From: Caulobacter sp. SLTY
Lineage (GTDB): Bacteria; Pseudomonadota; Alphaproteobacteria; Caulobacterales; Caulobacteraceae
Direction: 5' to 3'
Length of the DNA stretch: 64,000 bases
Assembly (NCBI RefSeq): GCF_009905535.1
Contig: NZ_JAAALA010000008.1
Span: 73,487 to 137,486 of the forward strand
Shown here: positions 32,410-42,057 of the stretch, piece by piece
How the letters are laid out: each line of letters begins with the position of its first letter
How positions within the stretch are numbered: position 1 is the stretch's first letter
Program-made: the position numbers and the translations under genes
Notes under the pieces: generated by a model
The model's database searches: none
The model's input: only the letters and a program-made list of their open reading frames with translations
Told to the model about the DNA's origin: nothing

Positions 32410-34356
32410 ATGAGCCTCGCGGACTGGACCATCGCCCGAAAAGTCGGTGCGGCGTTCACCGGTGTGGTGGCGATCGTCGCCGCGACCGGCGCCTTCACCG
32501 TCTACCAGGTCAACAACATCAGCGTCCTCAACAAGAGCCTTGAGGGCGCCTGGAACGAGGACATCGCTCTGCGCCGGGCCGAGTTCTACCTCGCCCGCCA
32601 GGAAAACAGCCTGCGTGGCTACATCCTGAGCCAGGACGCCTACTACCTTGAACGGCTGAACGCCCACCGGGCGAACTTCAAGAAGCAGCTGACGGTCATC
32701 GAGAGCAATGCCGGCGGCGACGCCGCTCAGCTGCAGCGTATCGCCGACACCGCCCAGGCCGCCGACGGCTGGCACACCGGCGTCGTCCAGCGCGTCGACG
32801 GCATGATTCAGTCTGGCGGGGTCGCCGACGCTATCGCCCTGGTCGGCCGGGATGGCGAGGCCGACGGCCTGATGGAGAAGGCCGAGAACAATCTGGACGT
32901 CCTGACCAAGGCCACCGACGGCCGCATCGCCGCCGAGCGCAAGGAGTTCGCCGATCTGATCGGCCTGACCGTCGCCCTGGCCATTGTCGGGGTCCTGTTG
33001 GCCGCCGCCCTGGCAGCCTTCGCCGGCCTGTTGCTGGCGCGGACCATCAGCCGGCCGGTTCGCGGCCTGACCTCGGTCATGGAACGGTTGGCGGTGGGTG
33101 ATCTGTCGGTCGATATCGCCTCCGCTCGTCGGGGCGACGAGATCGGCGCCATGAGCCGCGCGGTTCAGGTGTTCAAAGACAATGCCGTGGCCCTGAAGAC
33201 CGCCTCCGCGGACAAGGACCGCATGGAAGGCGACGCGCGACTGTCCCGCGAACGCACCGAGGCCGACCGCGCCCGCGCCGCCGCCGAACTGGCGGCCGTT
33301 GTCGAGGAGACCGGCGTCGCCCTCTCCGCCCTCTCCGAAGGCGACCTCAGCCACCGCATCCACGCCGACTTCCCCGGCGAATACCGCCGCCTGAAGGACG
33401 ACTTCAACCTGGCCATGGGCCGGCTGGAAGAGGCGATGAGCGTGATCACCGCCAACGCCACGGCCATGCAGTCCGGCGTCGGCGAGATCAGCCAGGCCGC
33501 CGACGACCTGTCCCGCCGCACCGAACAGCAGGCCGCGACTCTTGAAGAGACCGCCGCCGCCCTGGAAGAGATCACCGCCACGGTGAAGAAGACCGCCGAG
33601 GGCGCGCAACAGGCCAACAGCGTGGTCACCGGCGCCAAGGCCGACGCCGAGCAGAGCGGCGTGGTCGTCTCCAATGCCGTCGCCGCCATGGGCGAGATCG
33701 AGCGCTCCGCCGACCAGATCAGCCAGATCATCGGCGTGATCGACGAAATCGCCTTCCAGACCAACCTTCTGGCCCTCAACGCAGGGGTGGAGGCGGCCCG
33801 CGCCGGCGACGCCGGCAAGGGCTTCGCGGTCGTCGCCCAGGAAGTGCGGGCCCTGGCCCAGCGCTCCGCCGAGGCGGCCAAGGAGATCAAAGCCCTGATC
33901 ACCGCGTCCAGCCAGCAGGTCGGCCAGGGTGTGCAGCTGGTCGGCCAGACCGGCGAGGCCCTGCGCCGCATCGTCGAGCGGGTGGCCGAGATCACCGGTC
34001 TGGTCTCCGAGATCACCGCCTCGACCCAGGAACAGGCCACCGGCCTCTCCCAGGTCAACATCGCGGTCAACCAGATGGACCAGGCCACCCAGCAGAACGC
34101 GGCCATGGTCGAGCAGTCCACCGCCGCCAGCCACGCCCTGTCCCAGGAAGCGCTGGAGCTGGTCCGCCTGGTCGCCCGCTTCCGCACCAGCGGCGCTGCT
34201 CCGGTGGCGAGGGCGGCTCCCGTCGCCGCCCCGATCGTCGCCACGCCGGCGCCGACCGCAGCCAACAGCTTCCGCAACCGCTATTCCGCCCCTGCCCTCA
34301 AGACCACCCAACAGGTTCGCGCCGCCCCGGTGGACGACAGCTGGGAGGAGTTCTGA
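32410..34356 (+). CDS. Methyl-accepting chemotaxis protein (McpA-like)
   Basis: 648 residues, inner-membrane chemoreceptor. TM1 at about 12-34, a periplasmic four-helix sensor domain (about 35-180), TM2 at about 185-212, HAMP ([20 protein letters not shown]), a second HAMP-like stretch ([14 protein letters not shown]), then the signalling domain with hairpin tip [20 protein letters not shown] and [16 protein letters not shown]. The C-terminus ends DSWEEF, with the WExF pattern of the CheR/CheB tethering pentapeptide. GGAGGGGG upstream of the start is a strong ribosome-binding site. First of twelve consecutive chemotaxis genes. Confidence 0.95.
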
Positions 34357-40622: not shown

Positions 40623-40973
40623 ATGAGCCAGCCCCACGCCACCATCCCCCTGCCCGACCTGCTCACCCAGGTCGGCCGGGAGTTCGACGACCTGGCTCGC
40701 GAAGTCGAGCAGCTGCAGGAAACGCTGTCAGACGTCCTGCTGGGCGCCCGCCAGAACCCTGAATTGCTGCATCAGGCGCAGGCTCTGGACCACGTCTTCC
40801 AGCACATGGCCCAACTGGCCGTGATCGTCTCGCGCGCCGCCGACCAGGCTCCGGCCGAATGGCGGGTGCCTGCCGAACCGGTGCTGCGGGACGTCTCCCT
40901 GTCCGGCCTGGTCGGCCGGCTGACCGGAGCGCCGGTAGAGCCGGTCGCGGCCGGGGACATGGACCTGTTCTAG
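40623..40973 (+). CDS. cheU: Chemotaxis operon protein CheU
   Basis: 116 residues, mainly helical (LLTQVGREFDDLAREVEQLQETLSDVLLGARQ, then LDHVFQHMAQLAVIVSRAADQ), probably a coiled-coil pair, and a short tail ending DMDLF. The name follows the gene at this position in the Caulobacter chemotaxis operon. No enzymatic motif; function not established. The helical core could be a docking or phosphatase-like scaffold, but I see no CheZ or CheC signature. Its TAG overlaps the GTG of the next gene. Confidence 0.8.
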   Translation: MSQPHATIPLPDLLTQVGREFDDLAREVEQLQETLSDVLLGARQNPELLHQAQALDHVFQHMAQLAVIVSRAADQAPAEWRVPAEPVLRDVSLSGLVGRLTGAPVEPVAAGDMDLF

Positions 40974-41572
40974 TGGCCCTCGACATCGAATCCCGGGCCC
41001 GGTTCAACCTCAAGAGCGCCACGATCTTGCTGGTCGAGACGCCCGGGGTGAATATGGACATCCTGTCCCAGATCCTGATGGGCTTCGGGGCCAAGGCGAT
41101 GCACCGCTGCGACAGCGCAGTCGACGCCCGCACCACGATCGGCCGCACCGAGATGGACCTGATGGTGATCTCGCCATTCCTGGCCGACGAATGCGGCTAT
41201 GAGCTGGTGCAGTGGATCCGCAGAGAAGCACCGGACCCCAACAAGTTCGCGCCGATCATCATGGTTTCGCCGCACACCGAGCAGTCCAAGGTCGCCCGCG
41301 CCCGGGACTGCGGCGCGCACTTCCTGGTCGCCAAGCCGCTTACGCCCGCGGTGATCCTGGAGCGGATCATCTGGGTCGCCCGCTCGCAGCGCCCCTTCGT
41401 TTCCTGCGACACCTATGTGGGGCCGGAGCGGCGCTTCAAATTCGAAGGGCCGCCGGCCACGGGCGGGCGGCGACGCGACGATCTGCCAGAGACCGTCGGC
41501 GAAGCCGTCGAACCCAACATGTCCCAAGACCAGATCGACGCCCTGATGGCGCCGCGCAAGGTAGCGATATGA
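40973..41572 (+). CDS. cheYIII: Pseudo-receiver CheY-like protein (CheYIII position) with FliM-like tail
   Basis: 199 residues from GTG 40973 (TAGTG junction with cheU). A receiver fold is evident (LKSATILLVETPGVNMDIL, MDLMVISPFLADECGYELV, IIMVSPH, FLVAKPLTP), but the acid pair reads E22/T23 and the phosphoacceptor site is S67; only K121 remains. It should therefore not be phosphorylated normally. After residue 145 comes an arginine-rich tail (GPERRFKF, then GGRRRDD), reminiscent of c-di-GMP-binding Cle-type CheY proteins of Caulobacter. The extreme C-terminus MSQDQIDALMA (183-193) closely resembles the FliM N-terminal SQxEIDALL peptide that CheY-P binds. Both tail readings are inferences. 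Confidence 0.85.
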   Translation: MALDIESRARFNLKSATILLVETPGVNMDILSQILMGFGAKAMHRCDSAVDARTTIGRTEMDLMVISPFLADECGYELVQWIRREAPDPNKFAPIIMVSPHTEQSKVARARDCGAHFLVAKPLTPAVILERIIWVARSQRPFVSCDTYVGPERRFKFEGPPATGGRRRDDLPETVGEAVEPNMSQDQIDALMAPRKVAI

Positions 41573-42057
41573 GTGAAGTCCACTACTACCGGCCGAAGAT
41601 GAAGCTGGCGAAGATGCTCCGCGAGCCGGGCGGCAAGACCGTGGCCGAGGCGGTCAGAGACGCCAATGCCGGGCTGGAAAGCATCAGCGCCGATTGCATG
41701 GACGAGGTCGACGCCTTCATCGGCCGCATTGAGGCGACCTTCGCCGCCCTGCCCGCCGACTTCGACGCCGAGGCCCTCCATGGCCTCTACAAGGCGGCCA
41801 ACGGCCTGATCGGCCTGCCCGGCATCGTCGGCCTCTCGGAACTGGAAACCGCCGCCTACAGCCTGGCCGACCTGACGGATCGGATGATCGCCGCCGGCCG
41901 CTTCGAGCGCGAAGCGGCCCGCGTCCATGTCCAGGCCCTGCGCCTGCTACGCCGCCCCGACGCCCTGGGCGTCGCCGGCCTCGGCGAAGTTCTGGCTGGC
42001 CTGGCCCAGGTGCGCGACAAGTTCCGCGCAATGGACGTTCAAGCGGCCTCCGACTAA
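41569..42057 (+). CDS. cheE: CheE, HPt-like protein lacking the phosphoacceptor His
   Basis: 162 residues, last gene of the operon, starting on ATGA overlap. Residues 70-101 (LHGLYKAANGLIGLPGIVGL, SELETAAYSLAD) align without gaps to the P1/HPt helix of CheA from this operon, but the phosphoacceptor His is N78 and the HxxKG lysine is Ile. This is therefore a degenerate histidine-phosphotransfer fold that may bind receivers without transferring phosphate. The N-terminus is basic (YYRPKMKLAKMLREPGGK). The stop shares CTAA with the stop of the convergent GST gene. Confidence 0.8.
   Translation: MSEVHYYRPKMKLAKMLREPGGKTVAEAVRDANAGLESISADCMDEVDAFIGRIEATFAALPADFDAEALHGLYKAANGLIGLPGIVGLSELETAAYSLADLTDRMIAAGRFEREAARVHVQALRLLRRPDALGVAGLGEVLAGLAQVRDKFRAMDVQAASD

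Follow-up and report, generated by a model that had tools for sequence, protein, structure and literature searches.

The CleA family of CheY-fold c-di-GMP effectors is already known. In Caulobacter crescentus, the input of CleA is c-di-GMP, which acts at an arginine-rich (Arg-rich) region between the receiver and the C-terminal tail, and CleA binds the N-terminus of the flagellar switch protein FliM in a bacterial two-hybrid assay; this binding is lost with the FliM ID57WA mutant (PMC5677366). CleA D67A is functional and RR153AA is not, while R111 contributes partly. The polar localisation of CleA requires the central arginines of the Arg-rich region together with R111, and R167 is dispensable for it (PMC5677366). 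The isolated Arg-rich region of CleA did not bind c-di-GMP, and binding was seen when the C-terminal region was included, as a SUMO fusion. For the related CleD, the FliM peptide gives rise to NMR shifts only when c-di-GMP is present. In genetic terms, CleA opposes CheYII (PMC5677366).

How does c-di-GMP at the Arg-rich region enable the protein to grip FliM? In the main text of PMC5677366 this is answered by a proposal only, and the authors favour a remodelling of the binding face via helix 4 when c-di-GMP binds. The C-terminal region of the Cle proteins is described there as variable in length and sequence. A conserved FliM-like peptide lying just past the Arg-rich region would offer a concrete switch that can be tested with mutants.

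The cleA locus and its product

The window is a stretch of 64,000 nucleotides from Caulobacter sp. SLTY, and the features considered here are as follows.

40623..40973, + strand: cheU, with a CheZ/CheT-like DxxxQ signature and a C-terminal GDMDLF
40973..41572, + strand: cleA orthologue at the CheYIII position; 199 aa from a GTG start; receiver (REC) with Arg-rich region and FliM-like tail
41012..41395, + strand: CheY-like receiver domain of cleA, residues 14-141, with a degenerate phosphate pocket
41171..41173, + strand: Ser67 codon at the position of the phospho-acceptor Asp, read from the translation and relatives
41303..41305, + strand: Arg111, the helix-4 arginine conserved in Cle proteins (R in 41/42 non-redundant relatives)
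41414..41485, + strand: Arg-rich c-di-GMP region, residues 148-171, YVGPERRFKFEGPPATGGRRRDDL, from conservation in relatives
41516..41569, + strand: C-terminal tail, residues 182-199, NMSQDQIDALMAPRKVAI; frame kept in relatives, helix in the AF2 model
41519-41548, + strand: FliM-like core of the tail, residues 183-192, followed by a Caulobacterales-type end, residues 193-199
41569..42057, + strand: cheE, a degenerate HPt-like protein, partner gene of cleA

The start of cleA shares one base with the stop codon of cheU, and its own stop codon overlaps the ATG of cheE as ATGA; cheU, cleA and cheE are therefore probably co-translated. The protein encoded by 40973-41572 is a CleA orthologue. The published residues D67, R111, RR153 and R167 of CleA correspond to S67, R111, R153/R154 and R167 in the window protein. 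The CheY fold of the receiver was confirmed, and the earlier note was right that the phospho-acceptor Asp is lost: the pocket positions are occupied by E22, T23, S67 and S99, and only K121 is retained of the set found in a phosphorylatable CheY (acidic pair, Asp, Thr/Ser and Lys). Phosphorylation as the input of this protein is thus ruled out by S67. The natural loss of Asp67 fits the published CleA, since the D67A mutant is functional. CheYI and CheYII, encoded in the same cluster, retain their phosphorylation residues. An account of the protein as a pseudo-receiver with a docking tail was, however, incomplete: the protein is CleA, its input is c-di-GMP, and the receiver side itself binds FliM.

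In the window CleA the Arg-rich region is represented by YVGPERR, R166-R167, D170 and R140. Residues R153, R154, F155, K156, R166, R167 and D170 are kept in all 42 non-redundant relatives, as are G150 and P151, and the GPDRRFK segment shows 0 non-synonymous against 536 synonymous differences in 168 close pairs. A second tandem copy of the motif is degenerate in the window CleA (GGRRRDD), as it is in CleA orthologues of C. vibrioides, for example L144. On a FastTree receiver tree of 197 REC + Arg-rich proteins, built from few columns and with many open forks, at least 13 changes of Asp state and at least 15 of tail state were counted, with no direction assigned to them.

A FliM-like peptide at the C-terminus

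Translation of the 199-residue frame gives VGEAVEPNMSQDQIDALMAPRKVAI as its last residues, and confirms both Ser at residue 67 and MSQDQIDALMA at residues 183-193 (41519-41551). The earlier note had reported a match of seven of nine positions to SQxEIDALL. This figure counts the wildcard; at the specified positions the agreement is six of eight, with Q for E and M for the last L. A nearer yardstick for the tail is the FliM of the same genome, encoded on another contig (ERILNQDEIDSLLGFD), whose docking helix reads LNQDEIDSLL.

When the 4.08-Mb genome was searched with a degenerate DNA pattern of the motif, 29 matches were found, compared with 9 for a reversed-pattern control. Among the 29, [LM][NST]QDxID near a protein end occurs only in FliM, at the N-terminus, and in CleA, at the C-terminus; the other matches within 60 residues of a C-terminus are RIAQDDINAV (14 residues away) and LAQEAIDWL (35). 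The window segment MSQDQIDALM compares with a FliM-type docking pattern of LSQxEIDxLL. On a matrix built from 30 class-wide FliM helices the window tail scores 6.8, and the 99.9% shuffle threshold is 6.81, so that taken alone the window tail is borderline. The case for a FliM-like tail, as judged from sequence, is one of conservation in relatives and not of a single sequence. In an AF2 model the tail forms a helix at residues 185-192, with a mean pLDDT of 79 for residues 181-190 against 57, 47 and 54 in the three preceding blocks, although a free short helix could also reach about 79.

Conservation of the tail among Caulobacterales

Two sets of relatives were used: the named relatives, which are the best 79 of 180 confirmed loci, and a Caulobacterales set of 90 REC + Arg-rich proteins from 150 genomes (the 30 best matches and 60 picked by list position). 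Alignment A2 covers 71 of the 79 loci; L117, L124, L127, L129, L148, L154 and L165 were omitted as near copies, and L174 because its tail is broken. The loose frame [ML][STDEA][QD]xx[ILV], within the last 19 residues, is kept in 78 of the best 79 named relatives of the 180 confirmed, which supports the FliM-like tail as a real and conserved feature. By contrast, Q-x-x-[IV]-D is kept in only 43 of the same best 79 of 180. Conservation of a C-terminal SQxxIDAL, which the earlier note had named as a check, therefore holds for the frame and often fails for the ID pair. In the Caulobacterales set, 76 of 90 proteins matched the tail regex, with L035 and L084 added by eye, and 42 of 90 exceeded the 99.9% shuffle threshold on the FliM matrix.

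Individual positions differ in how strictly they are kept. In the 42 non-redundant relatives, N182 is found in 40, Q185 in 41 and I188 in 39, and position 196 always holds K or R; position 189 is D in 27 and N in 13. Counted over 74 relatives, Asp stands at position 189 in 42 and is replaced in 32, by Asn (20), Ala (7), Ser (4) or Glu (1). In the FliM of the same genus, ILNQDEIDSLLGFD is kept in 30/30 genomes, and nearly so class-wide, with the motif in 30/30. In the CleA tail, the Asp of the ID pair is replaced in each of the 25 same-genus genomes in which both proteins were read (Ala/Ser in 20, Asn in 5); the window tail itself retains the ID pair. The tail mostly ends in [KR]Px[KR]Vx[LI] in Caulobacterales, an element lacking in FliM. 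The CleA tail thus retains the hydrophobic frame of the FliM helix and often not its full sequence, which speaks against its being a strict copy of that helix.

When codons were compared in 168 close pairs, the non-synonymous fraction was lowest in the Arg-rich region (0.00 and 0.15), intermediate in the receiver (0.31) and the tail end (0.36), and highest in the tail core (0.45) and the linker (0.46). The expectation that the tail core would be more constrained than the linker is contradicted by these values. Within the tail, no amino-acid change was seen at N182, I188 and V197 in the close pairs. By eye, the receiver face of the tail-less proteins L064, L072, L073 and L069 shows no changes of note relative to their tailed neighbours, a comparison that neither helps nor hurts docking of the tail in cis.

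The tail beyond Caulobacterales

At E <=1e-15, a CleA profile finds matches in 163 of the 289 genomes of Alphaproteobacteria, a count in which the Arg-rich region is not confirmed for each match. A class-level sample was made up of 116 REC + Arg-rich proteins from 110 loci (30 loci reported and 80 further listed places), and leans to good matches of a profile model that includes the tail. A strict FliM-like regex picks out ten of the 116 proteins, that of the window among them, and in each the match lies within 2-8 residues of the C-terminus; examples are AMSQDQIDSLME, DLSQDEIDALFK and GLSQDEVNALLS. The same regex found 0 matches in 200 shuffles, 0 in reversed sequences and 0 in 835 other reading frames. 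It had been composed after some tails were seen, and its control is the matrix made from the 30 FliM helices only, on which 9 of 115 class-level proteins score above the 99.9% shuffle threshold, where 0.12 would be expected. Among these nine, L271 and L218 are poor fits to the pattern, and L267 and L269 have the motif 11 and 9 residues before the end, with Lys for Asp; the matrix misses L220, L230, L232 and L239, all of which match the regex.

Could the likeness to FliM be a chance feature of an otherwise unimportant tail? The score of the window tail, which alone only comes to the threshold, and the share of amino-acid changes in the tail core, as large as that in the linker, are what such a reading would predict. 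It is nonetheless very improbable, given the near-invariance of N182, Q185 and I188 in the non-redundant relatives (40, 41 and 39 of 42) and the recurrence of the peptide across the class at the extreme C-terminus, with none in the controls.

The class-level tails, the window row apart, end 2-5 residues past the FliM-like core, and the part that recurs is Q-x-x-[IV]-[DNE]. A KPxKVxI-like end is absent from the other nine of the ten regex-matched proteins and thus seems to be an addition of Caulobacterales. This bears on the idea that the tail is mainly a part of the c-di-GMP site, folding with the Arg-rich region round the ligand, with its likeness to FliM secondary or that of any amphipathic helix. 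The idea draws on the published need for the C-terminal region in c-di-GMP binding by the Arg-rich region of CleA (PMC5677366), and on the conservation in Caulobacterales of an end that FliM does not have. It becomes improbable when the class-level tails are considered, which stop after the core without that end and in which the recurring part is that of FliM.

In 12 genomes picked by hand, nine with strict-regex proteins and three with looser peptides (L270, L258 and L267), searches found FliM in nine and CheW in the same nine. In the other three, all with tailed proteins, neither was found by the search.

G357, 98% complete: L217, GLSQSEVESLLGD; FliM and CheW not found
G193, 97% complete: L239, AMSQEEVEALMNS; FliM and CheW not found
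G373, only 70% complete: L258, GLSPTEVEALMRR, a looser peptide; FliM and CheW not found

In all three tails, Glu replaces the Asp of the ID pair. Since FliM and CheW were not found, the partner of the tail in these three genomes would be other than the chemotaxis CheY-FliM pair, and the protein's own receiver is the simplest candidate.

A proposed tethered pseudo-ligand

Our preferred reading, which we hold tentatively and place a little short of probable, is that the tail of CleA is a built-in pseudo-ligand that lies over the protein's own FliM-binding face until c-di-GMP frees it. The last 18 residues contain an amphipathic helix of the same build as the CheY-docking helix of FliM. Without c-di-GMP, this helix would rest on the alpha4-beta5-alpha5 face of its own receiver, that is, the face for FliM, and a linker of about 40 residues would keep its local concentration high, so that it could compete with FliM in cis. 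Binding of c-di-GMP to the Arg-rich region, which is the linker, would fold linker and tail together and uncover the face; CleA could then dock on FliM and compete with CheYII-P.

The reading starts from the CheY fold, the Arg-rich region and the conserved tail seen here, and from the published binding of c-di-GMP and FliM by C. crescentus CleA. From these we infer two steps, the tail on its own receiver and its movement by c-di-GMP. Competition in cis is to be expected because the CleA receiver recognises the FliM helix and carries a like helix on a tether, and c-di-GMP could draw the tail off the face because it binds at the tether, with the C-terminal region contributing to that binding. 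CleA orthology, conservation of the tail, the distant C-terminal peptides, the AF2 helix and the published CleD and CleA data all point in this direction. The drift of the tail would make it a weaker ligand than FliM, as such a switch needs.

Several observations go against it: in close relatives the non-synonymous fraction of the tail core is about that of the linker, D189 is variable, and the FliM ID57WA mutant loses CleA. In addition, some REC + Arg-rich proteins are tail-less and yet have a similar face; therefore, not every Cle protein can need the tail for gating by c-di-GMP. In PMC5677366, remodelling of the face via helix 4 is proposed instead. Displacement of the tail and remodelling of the face can both operate together.

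The main rival is that the tail acts in trans, as the earlier note had suggested, by capturing CheYI-P, CheYII-P or another receiver via its FliM-docking face. CleA would then serve as a sink for CheY-P, or would carry CheY to the motor on which it is itself docked. The peptide resembles the CheY-docking helix of FliM, the gene lies within a che cluster together with cheYI and cheYII, whose phosphorylation residues are intact, and the published opposition of CleA to CheYII (PMC5677366) is in keeping with such a role. Capture in trans is possible but unlikely, and is not favoured here: the Asp that FliM keeps is missing from the tail in 25/25 same-genus genomes, 3 of the 12 genomes checked have tailed relatives while the search found no FliM and no CheW, and local concentration favours the form in cis.

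CheE, CheU and CheD

From its sequence, cheE is best described as a degenerate HPt gene. Its class-level relatives beside REC + Arg-rich genes carry AHDMKGQG-like motifs. In a scan of five CheE-like proteins with Pfam Hpt, two gave E values of 5e-4 and one of 0.015, all below the curated cut-off; the CheE of the window and that of L208 gave no match. The HPt His is absent in the window CheE and in all 75 named relatives aligned, and the five rows with His are all class-level. Outside Caulobacterales, CheE-like partners often keep the His; the one beside L230 is an example of a partner with His.

In 24 of 29 class loci, the REC + Arg-rich gene has a CheE-like neighbour on its own strand; such a gene was found in 0 of 87 control loci. 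Laxer limits add L236 (1.1e-9) and L223 (1.7e-4). The CheE model includes proteins from 7 of the 29 tested loci, for which leave-own-out scores are still 1.1e-35 to 4.8e-12. Negative distances to CheE in L208, L209, L212, L214 and L218 (one base) reflect overlapping stop-to-stop frames and are not gene distances. Of 11 partners of Asp-less receivers, 10 are without the His, against 28 of 57 partners of Asp-keeping receivers, a comparison that is not corrected for relatedness and counts two doubtful alignments (L260 and L314) among the 28. It draws on the 74 of 123 loci in which a CheE-like gene was found, many loci having short flanks, and omits four gap rows and two rows without a receiver state.

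Among the best 79 of the 180 confirmed loci, cheE was found in 75, cheD in 52 and cheU in 38. In L099, L100, L102, L104, L106-L108 and L110-L112, which are Phenylobacterium and one MAG, the cleA-cheE pair occurs without a close same-strand CheD in 6-kb flanks. The pair therefore seems to form an independent unit.

We would extend the tethered pseudo-ligand, as a doubtful and speculative generalisation, to a class-wide design, in which c-di-GMP-controlled CheY-like proteins carry the docking peptide of their target as a tethered pseudo-ligand, the c-di-GMP site is the tether, and the ligand swaps the peptide for FliM. Many such proteins would be paired with an HPt-like gene, with the His and the receiver Asp lost as c-di-GMP replaced phosphotransfer; without flagella, the same parts would act on another target.

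The other two neighbours share features of their own. CheZ and CheT share the catalytic signature DxxxQ. CheU has DxxxQ (D, with Q at +4) in 39/39 sequences and ends in F or W in 38/39; against the NCBIfam CheT model it gives E 1.2e-3 and 18.9 bits, where the cut-off is 200. CheD ends in F in 52/53, mostly as [LVI][ED]LF. CheD (to 40620 in the window) and CheU (to 40973) differ in their linkers, which are variable, but both end in hydrophobic-[ED]-[LF]-F. The common ending suggests that CheD and CheU may share one docking partner. A receptor encoded at 32410-34356 ends in SWEEF. According to PMC10579534, a CheZ homologue has not been found in Caulobacter, and little has been described of cheD, cheU and cheE. 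CheU is a candidate for the CheY-P phosphatase that Caulobacter has seemed to lack.

Comparison with known systems

Searches of open-access literature, and passages of PMC5677366 and PMC7534056, gave no mention of a FliM-like motif in the Cle C-terminal region, and the main text of PMC5677366 has no wording on mimicry, intramolecular contact, autoinhibition or Hpt. A figure supplement of that paper aligns the Cle C-terminal regions, and the motif may be visible there. If the proposed mechanism is true, tethered mimicry of a target joins the known controls of receiver proteins, and helps to explain how Cle receivers could come to do without phosphorylation. For the origin of the Cle family, the HPt-like partner gene offers a second line of approach.

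The window protein agrees with C. crescentus CleA in its CheY fold, helix-4 Arg, Arg-rich region, position in the che cluster, C-terminal region and residue numbers; it differs in having Ser for Asp67 and E-T as the first acidic pair. With the N-terminal helix of FliM, the tail shares the hydrophobic spacing and the Q-D-x-I-D core. Unlike that helix, the CleA peptide ends a receiver protein, is mostly followed by [KR]Px[KR]Vx[LI], and is far more variable. CheZ, a phosphatase, also carries a CheY-docking peptide at its C-terminus. The CleA tail would be a peptide of this type, also at a C-terminus, on a protein that is itself a receiver. Within the cluster of the window, cheU is more like CheZ and CheT than CleA is.
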